This document shows, piece by piece, positions 2,231-12,510 of a stretch of 64,000 nucleotides of DNA; the first letter of the stretch is position 1, and the number at the start of each line of letters is the position of its first letter. Location of the stretch: assembly GCF_004803465.1 (NCBI RefSeq), contig NZ_SRSF01000001.1, positions 806,501-870,500 of the forward strand. The letters run 5' to 3'. A program made the position numbers and the translations under genes. This stretch comes from Neolewinella litorea (GTDB taxonomy: Bacteria > Bacteroidota > Bacteroidia > Chitinophagales > Saprospiraceae). The notes under the pieces were generated by a model that was not told the DNA's origin, ran no database searches, and saw only the letters and a list, made by a program, of their open reading frames with translations.

Positions 2231-3436
2231 CTACAGTTCCAGGTCGGCGCCGATCTCCTCGTGCCACTCCAGGCCGTGCTTTCCCAATACGTCGAGGAAG
2301 GGGTCGGGATTGAATTGCTCGACGTTATACACGCCGGCACCCTCCCACTTGCCCTGGATCAGCATCATGGCGCCGGTCATGGCCGGTACGCCGGTGGTGT
2401 AGCTCACGCCCTGCGCCCGCGTTTCCCGGTACGCCCGTTCGTGGCTGCAGTTGTTCCAGATGTAATAGGTCTCTTCCTTGCCGTTCTTCAGGCCCCGAAT
2501 CCGGCATCCGATGCTCGTCTGTCCGCTGTACCCCTCGCCCAGGCCGCCCGGATCGGGAAGCACCGTCTTTAGGAACTCCAGCGGGACGATCTCCACGCCC
2601 TGGTGCACCACGGGCTCGATGCTCGCCATGCCGATGTTCTGAATCACGCGCAGGTGGGTCAGGTATTCCTCGCCGAATGTCATCCAGAAGCGCGCGCGCT
2701 TGAGGGTCGGGAAGTGTTTTACTAGACTTTCCAGTTCCTCGTGGTAGAGGACGTAGCTGGGTTTCGGACCGATGTCCGGGTAGTTGAGGTCCTTGCGGAT
2801 GCTGAAGGGCGGAATTTCCACCCACTCGCCATTCTCGTAATATTTGCCCGGCTGAGTGATCTCGCGAATGTTGATTTCCGGGTTGAAGTTGGTGGCGAAG
2901 GCTTTGCCGTGATCCCCGGCGTTGGCGTCAACGATGTCGAGGTAATGGATCTCGTCGAAAATGTGCGACGCCGCCCGCGCGGTGAAAATGCTGGTCACGC
3001 CCGGGTCGAAGCCGCACCCCAGCACGGCCATCAGCCCGGCAGCCTTGAACTTGTCGTGGTAGGCCCACTGGTGGCTGTACTCGAATTTGGCTTCCTCCTT
3101 CGGCTCGTAATTGGCGGTATCGAGATAATGCACCCCGGCGGCCAGACAGGCGTCCATGATCGTCAGGTCCTGGTAGGGCAGCGCCACGTGGATCACCATG
3201 AAGGGATTGTAATCCTTGATGAGCTGCGTCAGCGCGGGTACGTCTTCGGCGTCGATGGCCGCGGTGGTAATTTTGTCGTACCCAAGGTCCGCCTTTATGT
3301 CGGCGGCAATCTCGTCGCACTTGCGCCTGGTGCGGCTGGCGATCATGAATTCGGTGAACACTTCGGGGTATTCGGCGCACTTGTAGGCCACTACGCGGCC
3401 GACTCCGCCCGCGCCAATGATGAGAACTTTAGACAT
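2231..3436 (-). CDS. saccharopine dehydrogenase family protein, probable carboxynorspermidine synthase
   Basis: 401 residues. A Rossmann nucleotide-binding motif GAGGVGRVV opens the protein (residues 8-16), and the family body follows with VLGCGFDPGVTSIF and the segment DIVDANAGDHG. Within the saccharopine dehydrogenase family, length and motifs resemble the bacterial carboxynorspermidine/carboxyspermidine dehydrogenases, which reductively condense aspartate semialdehyde with a diamine in the alternative spermidine pathway. That assignment is by recalled similarity; lysine-forming saccharopine dehydrogenase is the alternative. The decarboxylase partner (nspC) is not in the window. A TACCATTG sequence at 3480-3487 on this strand is a possible variant -7 box. 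Confidence 0.82.
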   Translation of the reverse strand: MSKVLIIGAGGVGRVVAYKCAEYPEVFTEFMIASRTRRKCDEIAADIKADLGYDKITTAAIDAEDVPALTQLIKDYNPFMVIHVALPYQDLTIMDACLAAGVHYLDTANYEPKEEAKFEYSHQWAYHDKFKAAGLMAVLGCGFDPGVTSIFTARAASHIFDEIHYLDIVDANAGDHGKAFATNFNPEINIREITQPGKYYENGEWVEIPPFSIRKDLNYPDIGPKPSYVLYHEELESLVKHFPTLKRARFWMTFGEEYLTHLRVIQNIGMASIEPVVHQGVEIVPLEFLKTVLPDPGGLGEGYSGQTSIGCRIRGLKNGKEETYYIWNNCSHERAYRETRAQGVSYTTGVPAMTGAMMLIQGKWEGAGVYNVEQFNPDPFLDVLGKHGLEWHEEIGADLEL

Positions 3437-6955: not shown

Positions 6956-7744
6956 TCAGGAATAACTGGGCTGTAAAATGCTTTTCACGAAATCCTCGGT
7001 GGCCTCCCCTACCCGGTCTTCCTGGTCTTTCAGCGCACGGATGAACGCACTGCCGATGATGGCCCCACTGAAGTACTCGCAGGCGGTGCGAAAAGTGGCG
7101 GCGTCGCTGATGCCGAATCCGATCAATTTGGGGTTCGGCAGATCCAGCGCTGCAATGCGGTCGAAATACGCCCGCTGGCGGTCCGTGATCTCGGAGCTGC
7201 CCCCGGTGATACTGCTGCTGCTTACGATGTACAGGAAACCGCTACTACTGGCCGCGATTTCCCGGATGCGCTCGTCGGGGGTCTGTGGCGTGATCAGGAA
7301 GCTGACCTGCAGGTCGGCCGCCTCGGCCAGCGCGCGAAAATCGCGCTGAAACTCGTAGGCGGGCAGGTCGGGTAATATGAGCCCGTCCACCCCGGCGGCG
7401 GCTGCCGCTTGCACGAAGCGCTCCGGTCCGTACTGCATCACCTGGTTATAATAGCCCATCAGCACCAGGGGGATATCGGTGTGGCGGCGAGCCTCGCTCA
7501 GTTGCTCGAACAGTACTTTCAGGGTCATGCCGTTCTGCAGGGCGGTCATACTGCTCTGTTGGATGGTCTCCCCGTCGGCCATCGGGTCCGAATAGGGCAT
7601 TCCTACCTCAATCAGGTCAGCGCCCGCCGCGGCGAGATGGCGAATGACCGGCACCGTGCTGTCCAGGGCCGGATAGCCGGCCGTGAAGTAGACGTTGAGG
7701 ATGTCGCGGGACTTTTCGGAAAAGAGTCGGCTGAGTCGGTTCAT
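6956..7744 (-). CDS. trpA: tryptophan synthase alpha subunit
   Basis: 262 residues from the ATG at 7744. This start is chosen because it overlaps the trpB stop as ATGA (translational coupling) and gives the standard N-terminus [20 protein letters not shown]. It is a TIM barrel that cleaves indole-3-glycerol phosphate. The catalytic Glu46 (DLIEVGMP) and Asp57 (SDPMADG) are present, as is the phosphate-binding GFGISDA region. Indole is channelled to TrpB. Confidence 0.97.
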
Positions 7745-8937
7745 GCTAGCGGTTCGGATTCGAGATAAGCGGAGAATGCGGCGAGGTCCTTGTCGCCACG
7801 GCCGCTGAGACAAATGACGATTACATCTTCCGGACCGTATTCCATCTGGTCCAGGGCAGCGAAGGCGTGGGCGGTTTCCAGGGCTGGGATGATGCCTTCC
7901 TGCCGGGCCACGAAGAGTGAGGCGGCGAGGGCTTCGTCGTCGGTCACGCTGATGGCCTCGGCGCGCTTGCCGTCAATGAGGAAGGCGTGCAGTGGGCCAA
8001 TGCCCGGGTAGTCGAGTCCGGCGGAAATGCTGTACGGTTCCACGATCTGTCCGTCCTCGGTCTGCATGAGCAGGGTACGGCTGCCGTGGATGATGCCTTC
8101 GGTGCCCAGCTGACTGGTCGCCGCGCTCTCCCCGCTGTTGACGCCCAGTCCGGCGGCCTCGACGGCGATCAGGCGTACGCGCTCGTCGTTGAGATAGTGG
8201 TAGTAAGCGCCCGCGGCGTTGCTGCCGCCGCCCACGCAGGCCACGATCGCGTCGGGATAGTCGCGGCCCAGCTTTTCCTGGAGCTGCCATTTGGTTTCCT
8301 CGGAAATGACCGACTGGAAGCGGGCCACCATGTCGGGGTACGGATGGGGACCCACGACCGACCCGATGATGTAGTGGGTATCCTCCGGGTTGTTGATCCA
8401 GTCGCGGATGGCCTCGTTGGTGGCATCCTTGAGGGTCCGTGAACCGCTACGGGCCGGGCGCACTTCGGCACCCAGCATTCGCATGCGCGCCACGTTCGGG
8501 GCCTGGCGCTCGATGTCGACCTCGCCCATGTATACGATGCACTTCAGGCCTTTGAGCGCGCAAACCGTAGCCGTAGCCACGCCGTGCTGCCCCGCTCCGG
8601 TTTCGGCGATGATTCGCTTTTTCCCAAGCCGCTCAGCCAGGAGGATCTGCCCGATGGTGTTATTGATCTTGTGGGCACCGGTGTGATTGAGGTCCTCGCG
8701 CTTTAGGTAGATGCGCGCCCCGTAGTGCTTGCTCAGCCGGTCAGCGTAGTAGAGCGGACTGGGACGACCCACGTAGTCCTTGAGCAACAGGTCGAACTCC
8801 TGCTTGAAGGCGGGATCCTGGAGCATTTGCAGGTAATTCACCCGCAGCTCTTCCACATTCGCCTGCAACATCTCCGGGATGTAGGCACCTCCGAAGCGGC
8901 CGTAGTAACCTCGCTCGTCTATTTGAGTATGTATCAT
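7741..8937 (-). CDS. trpB: tryptophan synthase beta subunit
   Basis: 398 residues, the length of a TrpB1-type subunit. The PLP lysine is Lys90 in [10 protein letters not shown], and the phosphate-cradling loop [10 protein letters not shown] is intact. It condenses indole with serine and pairs with TrpA, whose gene overlaps by four bases. Upstream is a 91-base spacer to trpG, the largest gap in the operon, holding a G-run repeat on the opposite strand and a small hairpin (GCTGAC/GTCAGC). In most complete trp operons trpD, trpC and trpF would lie near this point; they are absent. Confidence 0.98.
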
Positions 8938-9028: not shown

Positions 9029-9637
9029 TTAAGGGGCTTGGGGGTCCGCGACCAGGCGGCTGTGTACGAAGTTCAGTAAATTCTTGATCATCAGTCGTCC
9101 GTGTTCGGTCATAATGCTCTCGGGGTGGAATTGAACGCCGAAGATGGGATGTTCCCGGTGGCGCATGGCCATGATACCGCCGGCGTCGTCGGTGGCGGTC
9201 ACTTCCAGTTCCGGGGGCAGGGTCTGGGGGTCGATGACCCAGCTGTGGTACCGGCCGGCCCGGAAGCGTGGGGGTACGTCTTGGAAAAGAACGTCGCCTT
9301 CTGGCAGCGTGCGCTGCATATCGGTTTCCACACCGTGGTGTACTTCGGCGAGGTTGTGCAGCGAGGCACCGAATGCCTCACCGATGGCCTGGTGGCCCAG
9401 GCAGACGCCAAAGATGACTTTCTCCCCCGCGTACCGCCGGATCAGGTCGGGCATGATGCCGGCGTCGGCGGGCAGACCCGGTCCCGGACTCAGCACCACC
9501 AGGTCGTAATTAGCCACGTCATCCAGGGAGACCTGGTCGTTGCGAAACACATCCACGGAATGGTCCAGCTCATCCTCGATGTAGTGTACGAGGTTGTAGG
9601 TGAAGGAGTCGTAGTTGTCTAGAATGAGCACTTTCAT
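9029..9637 (-). CDS. trpG: anthranilate synthase component II (glutamine amidotransferase)
   Basis: 202 residues. A class I glutamine amidotransferase with nucleophile Cys79 (FGVCLGHQAIGE) and the His171/Glu173 pair in FGVQFHPES. It supplies ammonia to TrpE, whose gene ends 35 bases upstream. TrpG and PabA are hard to separate by sequence, but the position directly after trpE and before trpBA argues for TrpG; the protein may serve folate synthesis as well. Not fused to TrpD. Confidence 0.95.
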   Translation of the reverse strand: MKVLILDNYDSFTYNLVHYIEDELDHSVDVFRNDQVSLDDVANYDLVVLSPGPGLPADAGIMPDLIRRYAGEKVIFGVCLGHQAIGEAFGASLHNLAEVHHGVETDMQRTLPEGDVLFQDVPPRFRAGRYHSWVIDPQTLPPELEVTATDDAGGIMAMRHREHPIFGVQFHPESIMTEHGRLMIKNLLNFVHSRLVADPQAP

Positions 9638-9672: not shown

Positions 9673-11112
9673 CTAGAAACTGGCGGGCAGGGTTTCGGCC
9701 TTCGTCAGGGCTTTGGTGAGGGCGCCGAGCTTGTTATAGACTTCCTGCGTTTCACTTTCCTCGTCGCTTGCGGCTACTACTCCGGCACCGGCCTGGTAGT
9801 AGAGCGTGTTGTCCTGACTGAAAAAGGAGCGGATGAGGATGGCCTGGTTCATGCCGCCGTCGAAGTCGATGAAGCCGATGGCCCCGCCGTAAAATCCCCG
9901 CTGCCGGTTTTCGTAGCGGTCGATCAACTCAATCGCGCGGTACTTTGGTGCACCGCTCAGCGTGCCGGCCGGGAAGGTATCGCCGAAGACCCGCACGGCC
10001 ACGTCGTCCCGTTCCAGTCTACCATCCACGGTGCTCACCAGGTGGATGACGTGGCTGTAGTAGTGCACCTGCCGCAGGCTGCGTACCGTCACGTCGCGCG
10101 TGTGGCGGCTCAGATCGTTGCGGGCCAGGTCCACCAGCATCACGTGTTCCGCATTTTCTTTCGGATCGGCCAGCAGGCGTTCGGTAGCCTCACGGTCGCG
10201 CTCGGAATCGCCCGTCCGCTTGTAGGTGCCGGCAATTGGGTTAAGGCGGGCCACGCCGTCGCGGATGACCATCTGACTTTCCGGGCTCGAACCCATAATG
10301 CGGTAGTCTCCGTAATCGAAGTAGAACAGGTAAGGCGATGGATTAATGCTGCGCAGGGCGCGGTATACCTGAAATTCATCGCCCTGGAAGCCCTGCTGAA
10401 ACTGCCGGCTAAGCACGATCTGAAAAACGTCGCCGATACGGCAGTGATGCTTACCCTTGGCTACCAGCTCCCGAAACTCGTCGTCCGTAAGGTTGCTACT
10501 TTCCTCACCCGAGGTCTGAAACGGATGCACCGTTCCCCCCGAACGGATGGCCCGCTCCACTTCATCCAGTCGGCTTTCTTCTCCTTCCGGCAGATTTTCC
10601 AGCAGCAACAACTCATCGCGGTAGTGGTGGAACACGAGTAGAAAACGGTACAGGTGATACCGCAGGGCGGGCGCGCGCAGGTGCTGGGGATTGTGGAAGG
10701 AAAGCGTATCAAAGTAGGCTACCCCCTCGAAGTTGGTGTGGCCAATCAATCCGTTGAATTGGCGGATGAGCGGCGTGGTATCGCCATAATCGATGGCGAA
10801 GGAGCCGAGAAAGGAGTGGAGATCTTCGCTTACGGTTTGGCTGTCGTTACACGGCACTTCAGTAGGTGCCTCCCCTACCCTGCCCCTGCGGATCACGCCC
10901 TGATCCACCCGGTAGGCGGCCAGGGTTTCCAGGCCGAGGATACTGAAGTAGTGCTCGTTGTTCCGCGTTTCGTTCGACTCCAGCAAGACCGGATCGGTGA
11001 AGCGGTCGCGGACCGCCAGGTAAACGGACACTGGCGTGAGCTGATCGGCGGTAAGGCGCCGCGTCAGCACCTTCAGTCGGGTCGTGGGTTGCGCCGTAGT
11101 GGATGTGGTCAA
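9673..11112 (-). CDS. trpE: anthranilate synthase component I
   Basis: 479 residues. It contains the chorismate-binding domain with PSPYLFYFDYGDYRIMGSSPE, NPIAGTYKRTG and FPAGTLSGAPKYRAIELI. The N-terminal VLLESNE keeps the LLES motif that in other TrpE proteins forms the tryptophan feedback site, so end-product inhibition is likely. First structural gene of the operon, preceded by the Trp-rich leader peptide and terminator at 11147-11262. It starts 35 bases after the attenuator T-run. Confidence 0.96.
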   Translation of the reverse strand: MTTSTTAQPTTRLKVLTRRLTADQLTPVSVYLAVRDRFTDPVLLESNETRNNEHYFSILGLETLAAYRVDQGVIRRGRVGEAPTEVPCNDSQTVSEDLHSFLGSFAIDYGDTTPLIRQFNGLIGHTNFEGVAYFDTLSFHNPQHLRAPALRYHLYRFLLVFHHYRDELLLLENLPEGEESRLDEVERAIRSGGTVHPFQTSGEESSNLTDDEFRELVAKGKHHCRIGDVFQIVLSRQFQQGFQGDEFQVYRALRSINPSPYLFYFDYGDYRIMGSSPESQMVIRDGVARLNPIAGTYKRTGDSERDREATERLLADPKENAEHVMLVDLARNDLSRHTRDVTVRSLRQVHYYSHVIHLVSTVDGRLERDDVAVRVFGDTFPAGTLSGAPKYRAIELIDRYENRQRGFYGGAIGFIDFDGGMNQAILIRSFFSQDNTLYYQAGAGVVAASDEESETQEVYNKLGALTKALTKAETLPASF

Positions 11113-11146
11113 AGCGTTTAACGTTTAGGTCGGCCTCCGAGGAACC

Positions 11147-11182
11147 AAAAAACAAAGGCCCGCCGGAGCATCCGACGGGCCT
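11147..11182 (-). terminator. trp attenuator terminator
   Basis: On the minus strand a 12-bp stem (AGGCCCGTCGGA, loop TGC, TCCGGCGGGCCT; 11 Watson-Crick pairs and one G-T) is followed by TTGTTTTTT. It lies between the Trp-rich leader peptide and trpE, exactly where a classical attenuator terminator would be. Hand-found competing pairings: region 1 GTGGCTC (11236-11230, over the Trp codons) with region 2 GAGCAC (11213-11208, at the leader stop, one bulge), and region 2 GAGCACGCGG with region 3 CCGTCGGATGCTC (11178-11166, in the terminator stem and loop). These were not scored for energy. Confidence 0.9.
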
Positions 11183-11211
11183 GTAGATTTTTGCAAAGGG
11201 CTACCGCGTGC

Positions 11212-11262
11212 TCAGGGAAGAGTACAGGAGAGCCACCACCAATTACGGGTATTGTTTTGCAT
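11212..11262 (-). CDS. trpL: trp operon leader peptide
   Basis: A 16-codon open frame reading MQNNTRNWWWLSCTLP and a TGA stop, with three consecutive TGG codons at positions 8-10 (11241-11233). Trp is the rarest residue in most proteins, so three in a row in a tiny frame directly ahead of an intrinsic terminator and trpE is strong evidence for ribosome-mediated attenuation. Ribosomes stalling at WWW when charged tRNA-Trp is scarce should favour the antiterminator. A TACCTTAG box ends only four bases upstream of the ATG, so the transcript may be leaderless or nearly so (inference). Confidence 0.9.
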   Translation of the reverse strand: MQNNTRNWWWLSCTLP

Positions 11263-11266
11263 GGCG

Positions 11267-11274
11267 CTAAGGTA
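11267..11274 (-). promoter_or_regulatory. probable -7 element of the trp operon
   Basis: Reads TACCTTAG on the minus strand, one base from TAnnTTTG; the same octamer precedes the divergent gene at 11455. Initiation a few bases downstream would fall at or next to the leader-peptide ATG (11262). The nearest TTTG-like -33 candidate is spaced too far away to be convincing. Confidence 0.5.
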
Positions 11275-11432
11275 AATAGTTTTTCTGGTAATCCAGGCGC
11301 ACAAAAAGGACCACTCTTCATTTTGCGGCTCTGCACCTCCGGCAGCGTGGGACCCGGAGAGCGATGAATCTCACGTATAGCTTACATTGTAAGGATCGCC
11401 GGGCCGGGTAAACACCCCGTTACCGCGGCAGT

Positions 11433-11440
11433 TACCTTAG
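11433..11440 (+). promoter_or_regulatory. probable -7 element for the gene at 11455
   Basis: TACCTTAG, one base off TAnnTTTG and identical to the box of the divergent trp operon, 14 bases before the ATG. Confidence 0.45.
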
Positions 11441-11454
11441 CAAATTGCAGACCC

Positions 11455-12510
11455 ATGACCGACTTCATTCTATACGGCGCATACGGCTATACCGGTCGAT
11501 TGATCACGCGAATGGCAGCGGAATATGGACTGCGCCCGATGCTGAGCGGCCGGGATGCGGGCAAACTGAAAGCCATGTCGGATGAATTCGGTTACCCCTA
11601 CCGGGCGGTCGAACTGGCCGACCGTACCGGGCTGCACGACTTGTTGGATCACGCCGCCGTGGTACTTCACGCCGCCGGCCCCTTTTCCGAGACGGCCCGC
11701 CCCATGATGGAAGCCTGTATTAAAACCGGTACGCACTACCTGGACATAACCGGTGAGATCCCCGTATTCGCGTTGGCGGCGCAACGGGGGGCCGAAGCCG
11801 CGCGGGCCGGGGTAATGCTGATGTCGGGGGTGGGCTTTGACGTAGTACCTACCGACTGCCTGGCAGCCTATCTCAAGGGAAAGATGCCGGAAGCGACCGA
11901 GTTGGTGCTGGCCTTCGCCTGGAAAGGCGGCATGCTCAGCCACGGCACGGCAAAGACCATGATAGGTGGTCTTGGCCTGGGCGGAACCATCCGGGAGCAC
12001 GGCGAGCTGAAGTCCGTACCGGCAGCTCACGAAATACGGAGTTTCCCCTTTACGCCTGAAGTGCCCCTGCAGGCCGTCACCATCCCGTGGGGGGATGTTT
12101 TCACGGCTTACTTTACCACCGGCATCCCGAATATCAAGACCTTCTTCGCACTGCCGCCGGCGCATATCAAAGCCATGCGGCGCAGCAACTGGCTTGGTCC
12201 CGTACTGCGCCTACGATTCGTAAAAAACTTCCTGCGCAAGAAAGTAGAGGCAAAGCCGGTGGGCCCGGATGATGCCCAGCGGGCGGCGGCCGAGTCCTAT
12301 ATATACGGTGAGGTAAAGAACGTTGGCGGCAAAACCGTTGCCGCCCGCCTGCGGACGCCCGAGGGCTATACGCTCACGGCCCACAGTGCGCTGCTGATTG
12401 TCAATAAGGTGTTGGACGGTGAACTGAAAGTTGGCTACCAGACTCCGGCAGGACTATACGGAGCGGATCTGGTGCTTGAGCTCGAAGGCGTGACACGTGA
12501 GGACCTGTGA
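11455..12510 (+). CDS. saccharopine dehydrogenase-like NAD(P)-binding reductase
   Basis: 351 residues starting MTDFILYGAYGYTGRLITR, an N-terminal Rossmann motif (GAYGYTG, residues 8-14) characteristic of the saccharopine dehydrogenase-like / trans-acting enoyl reductase family. A segment MLMSGVGFDVVPTDCLAAYL follows, as in that family. Substrate unknown; relatives act on lipid or polyketide intermediates, but nothing nearby supports a specific pathway. It is divergent from the trp operon and probably monocistronic, with a TACCTTAG box just upstream and a weak hairpin after the stop. Confidence 0.8.
   Translation: MTDFILYGAYGYTGRLITRMAAEYGLRPMLSGRDAGKLKAMSDEFGYPYRAVELADRTGLHDLLDHAAVVLHAAGPFSETARPMMEACIKTGTHYLDITGEIPVFALAAQRGAEAARAGVMLMSGVGFDVVPTDCLAAYLKGKMPEATELVLAFAWKGGMLSHGTAKTMIGGLGLGGTIREHGELKSVPAAHEIRSFPFTPEVPLQAVTIPWGDVFTAYFTTGIPNIKTFFALPPAHIKAMRRSNWLGPVLRLRFVKNFLRKKVEAKPVGPDDAQRAAAESYIYGEVKNVGGKTVAARLRTPEGYTLTAHSALLIVNKVLDGELKVGYQTPAGLYGADLVLELEGVTREDL

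Follow-up and report, generated by a model that had tools for sequence, protein, structure and literature searches.

The window, by which we mean the whole stretch of 64,000 nucleotides of Neolewinella litorea DNA that was analysed, carries on its minus strand four genes of tryptophan biosynthesis followed by miaA:

9673..11112, minus strand: trpE, anthranilate synthase component I (profile match), with a TTG start at 11112
9029..9637, minus strand: trpG, anthranilate synthase component II (profile match)
7741..8937, minus strand: trpB (TIGR00263 above cut-off)
6956..7744, minus strand: trpA (TIGR00262 above cut-off), its ATG overlapping the trpB stop codon
6015..6938, minus strand: miaA, tRNA A37 dimethylallyltransferase (TIGR00174 above cut-off), starting 17 nt past the trpA ORF

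The best NCBIfam match of trpE is TIGR00564 (E 3.3e-115, 385.7 bits, below the cut-off of 517.7), and this trpE is 74-88% identical to those of five named Neolewinella/Lewinella strains (L002-L006). The start of trpA was taken from the ORF translation, as the mechanically called ORF begins at TTG 7813. In the 4.4 Mb source genome, trpD and trpC lie elsewhere (trpC was placed by PF00218), and this separate trpD-trpC locus (L244) has no WW leader. The region upstream of trpE contains the parts of a putative ribosome-mediated attenuator, all of them on the minus strand as well:

11267..11274, minus strand: -7 promoter box TACCTTAG, fitting the TAnnTTTG consensus (sigma-ABfr type), its first base 12 nt 5' of the leader ATG
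11262 (ATG) to 11212 (stop), minus strand: trpL leader peptide ORF MQNNTRNWWWLSCTLP, 16 codons by ORF translation, with a counterpart in 21/21 genomes of the genus
11233..11241, minus strand: three consecutive Trp codons, TGG TGG TGG, in the leader translation, with at least WW in 21/21 genus genomes
11220..11234, minus strand: region 1 (GGCU..GUACUC), from folds, its GTACTC invariant in nine aligned leaders
11199..11213, minus strand: region 2 (GAGCACGCGG..AGCC), from folds and aligned leaders, overlapping the leader stop codon
11166..11181, minus strand: region 3, comprising the terminator's rising arm and its loop, and antiterminator partner of region 2, from nascent folds and complementarity tests
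11146..11182, minus strand: intrinsic terminator from the terminator scan, with a 12-bp stem, a loop of 3 and a T-rich tail

Every element described in an earlier note on this DNA, which had pointed to a 16-codon WWW frame, a 12-bp stem with a T-run and then trpE, is present by ORF translation and terminator scan; the stretch it singled out ended at 11274, where the -7 box begins, and four bases separate this box (11274-11267) from the leader ATG. Region 1 starts inside the third Trp codon, and nine of the 12 pairs of the terminator stem, which the scan placed at 11182-11156, are G-C, for a folding energy of -24.1 kcal/mol. The terminator hairpin by itself is not unusual, since 0.8 terminator-like sites are expected upon shuffling the 701-base stretch. 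The 117-nt leader folds at -42.3 kcal/mol compared to -30.6 (sd 3.3) for dinucleotide shuffles (z -3.5), and none of 200 shuffles folded as well.

All 21 genomes of the genus, the source genome included, have a terminator preceded by a leader in which two or more Trp codons are consecutive; the terminator hairpins span -18.7 to -26.7 kcal/mol. The conservation of Trp codons and terminator among close relatives, on which the earlier note had made its reading depend, thus holds throughout the genus and far beyond it. For example, the 79 trpE loci with at least 120 nt of upstream sequence among the best 80 of 589 confirmed stretches (L033 was left out) were searched for an ATG frame of 6-40 codons that contains WW and lies no more than 400 nt upstream, and for a terminator of -10 kcal/mol or lower after this leader. 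A WW leader was present at 73 of these 79 named Bacteroidota loci, and a leader plus terminator at 71 of the 79, versus 1 of 336 control ORFs, these controls being other ORFs of at least 200 codons in the same loci that were picked mechanically and are perhaps not all genes. The sole positive control (L079) is a WWW leader ahead of the trpB of a trp operon in which trpB precedes trpE. Re-inspection of the six misses by looser, post hoc rules brought the number of loci with a leader to 78 of 79 (again from the best 80 of 589): the leader of L007 lies 479 nt upstream, L009 encodes WWW although its start region contains an N, L023 and L038 read WHW, and L079 is the locus just mentioned with its leader ahead of trpB, while L065 has no leader in its 283 nt of upstream sequence even by the looser rules.

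A wider sample of the phylum, in which trpE was found in 202 of 238 genomes, gave a similar picture for the class of the window (taken as Bacteroidia). All 52 other matched genomes of this class, excluding G000 and G003, have a leader (WW or WxW, with an ATG or GTG start) and 50 of the 52 have a scan terminator (not L110 and L119), so the attenuator is not special to the source genome. From the other classes, 36 of 148 matched genomes were picked from the listed matches to spread over families; 24 of the 36 genomes examined have a leader (WW or WxW), 23 of them together with a scan terminator, and the leader is absent by the rule used in 12. The combination of leader and terminator is absent in 2, 4, 1, 2 and 2 genomes of families f12, f17, f18, f28 and f37, respectively.

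Tandem trp attenuators, with two leader and terminator units in series 5' of trpE, occur in eight loci (L044, L049, L051, L052, L071, L074, L077 and L081), where the first unit mostly encodes IWLPWWGLL or similar and the second mostly NWWWRSNF or similar.

The two pairings that the earlier note proposed fared differently when relatives and folds were considered. An alignment of nine leaders, among them that of the window, shows GTACTC and TGAGCAC to be invariant, whereas the bases next to the Trp codons on their 3' side vary; the proposed 1:2 register GTGGCTC:GAGCAC was rejected as the main pairing because what stays invariant alongside GAGCAC is GTACTC rather than the CTC that follows the Trp codons. 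The folded 1:2 hairpin instead pairs GGCU..GUACUC with GAGCAC..AGCC. By contrast, the proposed 2:3 pairing of GAGCACGCGG with CCGTCGGATGCTC is formed by the nascent RNA in folding once the Trp codons are masked. To represent a stalled ribosome, the 5' part was masked up to the leading edge that a ribosome would have when halted on the Trp codons, and the transcript was cut just past the terminator loop; the fold under these conditions, at -13.0 kcal/mol, joins region 2 (GAGCACGCGG..) to the rising arm and the loop. The ribosome-free fold forms the 1:2 hairpin, and a ribosome at the stop codon hides region 2 and leaves the terminator alone, so the masked folding that the earlier note had suggested yields states that behave as an attenuation model demands.

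Inspection of nascent folds with the Trp codons masked showed region 2 paired to the rising arm in all 21 genus leaders, with a shifted register in L089, and compensating changes preserve the pairing, GAGC:GCUC becoming GAGU:ACUC in L091 and L101 and CUGAG:CUCAG in L102. No pair count was drawn from a MAFFT alignment of all 21 leaders, because it misaligned region 2 between two subclades. As a separate feature, members of the second subclade (L091-L101) have a small extra hairpin between the leader stop codon and the terminator, TTTGTTT..AAACAAA, which reads TGGTTT..AAACCA in L100; both sides change together across this subclade.

The terminator of the window (-24.1 kcal/mol) is far stronger than its antiterminator (-13.0 kcal/mol) and forms at equilibrium even with the Trp codons masked. 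Full-length thermodynamic folding is therefore uninformative as a test of the switch, as the terminator forms every time, and the order of synthesis, that is, kinetics, must decide the outcome. A need for kinetic ordering is usual in this class of attenuators.

Statistical support for the antiterminator was sought in 164 leader-terminator pairs from 156 loci, in which the sequence 3' of the Trp codons was compared with the terminator's rising arm plus its loop, using mononucleotide shuffles as the null; L002-L006 were removed from the pooled statistics as duplicates of five genus genomes. Complementarity between regions 2 and 3 had a mean z of -2.49, with 144 of 164 rows, which are related and not independent, below -1, and a rerun gave a mean z of -2.43 with 143 of 164 below -1. 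The controls were an equal stretch upstream of the leader (mean z -0.06, 30 of 164 below -1) and downstream stretches (mean z -0.48, 18 of 62 below -1). Native pairs also beat swapped ones across the whole set, with a mean rank of 0.156 versus 0.5 expected. Within the genus the swap test did not discriminate (20 rows, L087 being absent from the scan), as foreign regions were better on average in 8 of the 20 rows, including the window's own (L082), and it is uninformative for such close relatives. Antiterminator complementarity is thus under selection, and the predicted folds together with this selected 2:3 complementarity support the mutually exclusive 1:2, 2:3 and 3:4 pairings of an attenuator, in which a ribosome on the Trp codons would expose 2:3.

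The position of the leader relative to its promoter bears on how its translation would begin. A box of the form [TC]AnnTT starts 12 nt 5' of the ATG in 20 of the 21 genus genomes and 13 nt in the other (L092), where the box-fitting ATG was chosen for the 9 of 21 leaders with several in-frame ATGs; the twelve genus leaders with a single ATG have the same spacing (11 at 12 nt and one at 13 nt). Column conservation across the 21 genomes marks a TTTGG-like block near -35 (10 to 16 of 21 per column), the box and CGCC-ATG-CAA, and is weaker elsewhere. TAnnTTTG is described as the -7 box consensus of the sigma-ABfr type, and promoter elements of B. thetaiotaomicron as centred at -7 and -33 (PMC7366714). 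Because of these element positions and the box spacing, transcription of the leader would begin on the ATG itself or 1-2 nt 5' of it; the 5' UTR, deduced from box spacing alone, would probably be 0-3 nt and the leader probably starts leaderless. The earlier note had raised leaderless initiation as a possible twist, and the box-to-ATG spacing in the genus plus the TTTGG-like block near -35 support it short of proof.

Looking beyond the genus, 32 of 116 single-ATG leaders, of which 7 are in the genus and 25 outside, carry TAnnTTTG (allowing up to 1 mismatch) 10-16 nt 5' of the ATG, versus 8 of 336 control starts. The same box occurs at 17-45 nt in 45 of 116 leaders versus 53 of 336 control starts, with a cluster at 24-26 nt. 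From these spacings there seem to be two promoter-leader architectures, and leaderlessness would not be general, because the second group of leaders has its box 24-26 nt upstream. The existence of this second group, the absence from the window's own promoter of a clear TTTG properly spaced for a -33 element and the report that only ~3.7% of B. thetaiotaomicron 5' UTRs are <10 nt (PMC7366714) would all fit a genuine attenuator whose transcript begins further upstream and carries an ordinary 5' UTR. We consider such a start unlikely, although a serious contender, given that the box sits 12 nt (20 genomes) or 13 nt (one genome) from the ATG in 21 genomes and that sequences further upstream are poorly conserved apart from the TTTGG-like block. 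On the opposite strand, the box TACCTTAG recurs at 11433-11440 (+) in front of the divergent gene at 11455 (+), and a short 5' UTR is expected for this gene because the box sits 22 nt before its ATG.

A second question is whether, besides attenuation, the terminated RNA of ~115 nt or its peptide acts in trans, like rnTrpL and peTrpL of Sinorhizobium meliloti. If leaderless, the product would have the same gross form, being a small RNA that runs from the ATG to a terminator (PMC7298713), but there is no evidence for a target and the N-terminus of the leader peptide diverges inside the genus, so we regard this additional role as improbable.

Two other explanations are much less likely. Although a hairpin with a T-run is nothing exceptional here (mean of 0.8 in shuffles), it is scarcely credible that the leader frame is fortuitous and that the hairpin acts before trpE as an insulator or a constitutive terminator, since a WW ORF plus terminator recurs at 71 of 79 trpE loci (from the best 80 of 589) versus 1 of 336 control ORFs, the 2:3 complementarity is selected, and a constitutive terminator would block its own operon permanently. 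Other phyla regulate trp by T-box, TRAP or TrpR, but a Trp- or tRNA-binding RNA or protein as the sensor, with the ORF incidental, is very improbable here because 12 loci, one from the source genome, had no Rfam match at gathering score except a tRNA, no TrpR domain (PF01371) was found in the one genome searched, that of the source, and the Trp codons are conserved. Rfam matches in the window were sub-threshold and unrelated, and Trp_leader (presumably RF00513) was not among the matches up to E 10 for window positions 10500-12000.

Given the conservation of leader and terminator and the selected complementarity of the antiterminator, we propose that a trpL-type, ribosome-mediated transcription attenuator very probably controls trpEGBA and, probably, miaA, which agrees with the attenuation logic that the earlier note had suggested from the same DNA. 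RNA polymerase would start at, or within ~2 bases of, the leader ATG, and a ribosome would begin the WWW peptide at once; Bacteroidota ribosomes make little use of Shine-Dalgarno sequences. When charged tRNA-Trp is ample, the ribosome would reach the stop codon and hide the overlapping region 2, allowing the terminator (3:4) to form. When tRNA-Trp is uncharged, the ribosome would halt on the Trp codons and cover region 1, leaving region 2 free to pair with what would otherwise become the terminator's rising arm and loop (2:3), so that transcription would continue into trpE. In the absence of a ribosome the 1:2 hairpin would form and termination would be the default.

The inclusion of miaA in this circuit is suggested by gene order. 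Of the 20 other genus genomes, 19 (all but G019) provided stretches 3' of trpE, and 17 of these stretches hold trpA and extend far enough; miaA is next after trpA in 15 of these 17, 9 to 271 nt away by match ends, as it is in the window, but not in L255 and L262. In L261 trpB and trpA were not seen, and L263 ends too early. If miaA is co-transcribed with trpEGBA, the attenuator would co-regulate it. The miaA product modifies tRNA-Trp. The i6A modification of this tRNA is described as optimizing bacterial trp attenuation (Eisenberg, Yarus and Soll 1979, as cited in PMC7694415), and the neighbouring miaA makes feedback via tRNA modification testable.

Comparison with known systems places the element within an established logic. 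Like Escherichia coli trpL, it has a short leader with consecutive Trp codons, the 1:2/2:3/3:4 logic, a stop codon at region 2 and an intrinsic terminator before trpE; unlike trpL, it has no Rfam match, a Bacteroidota -7 box, probably no 5' UTR, WWW and no TrpR found, and miaA follows EGBA in its gene order, trpD and trpC being located elsewhere. With the trpL of trpE(G) in Sinorhizobium meliloti it would share attenuation before trpE, no transcription repression and probably, going by box spacing, a leader RNA from the ATG, although the phylum and the promoter type are others. The S. meliloti rnTrpL has the trpL ATG at its 5' end (Bae and Crawford 1990, as cited in PMC7298713), so a leaderless trpL is not new as such.

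As for priority, Vitreschak et al. are said to have predicted amino-acid leader attenuators in Bacteroidetes/Chlorobi for some operons in 2004, so this kind of attenuator was probably predicted earlier. A literature search found no report of a Bacteroidota trp attenuator, but it did not cover the likeliest sources and leaves priority unsettled. A known attenuation logic in a new instance, with wide reach in the phylum, is well supported.

The histidine operon offers a related observation. A tRNA-Phe gene precedes hisG in 21 of 21 genus genomes (L191, L195-L214; at 2274-2347, minus strand, upstream of hisG in the source genome, L191), and a His leader (at least HHH) precedes hisG in 19 of the 21, with none in L202 and L206. 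In seven of the 21 (L191, L195, L196, L197, L201, L204 and L207) the leader ATG directly follows the tRNA end called by ARAGORN, so tRNA 3' processing would create a leaderless His leader mRNA; the same seven genomes also have an in-frame ATG inside the tRNA-Phe gene. Among 28 further loci of the family, tRNA-Phe was present in 11 and a His leader in 20. No attenuators were seen upstream of two ILVD/EDD genes of the source genome (L192, L193), and the homoserine dehydrogenase (L194) fell outside the survey because its frame runs to the locus edge. The tandem trp attenuators and the His leader abutting a tRNA-Phe gene may be more novel than the main finding.

Taken together, these observations allow a broader proposal that we put forward tentatively, as its parts need not all hold: trp attenuation would be ancestral and phylum-wide; many lineages would lock the promoter to the leader ATG, such that the first ribosome loads on a bare 5' AUG leaving the polymerase; the Neolewinella attenuator would set the level of miaA and hence its own sensitivity, as a decoding feedback; and some His operons would reach an equivalent state via a 5' end from tRNA-Phe excision. 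The attenuator could serve as a model in which to study how transcription is coupled to translation and how leaderless initiation proceeds, in a phylum that has its own sigma factor.
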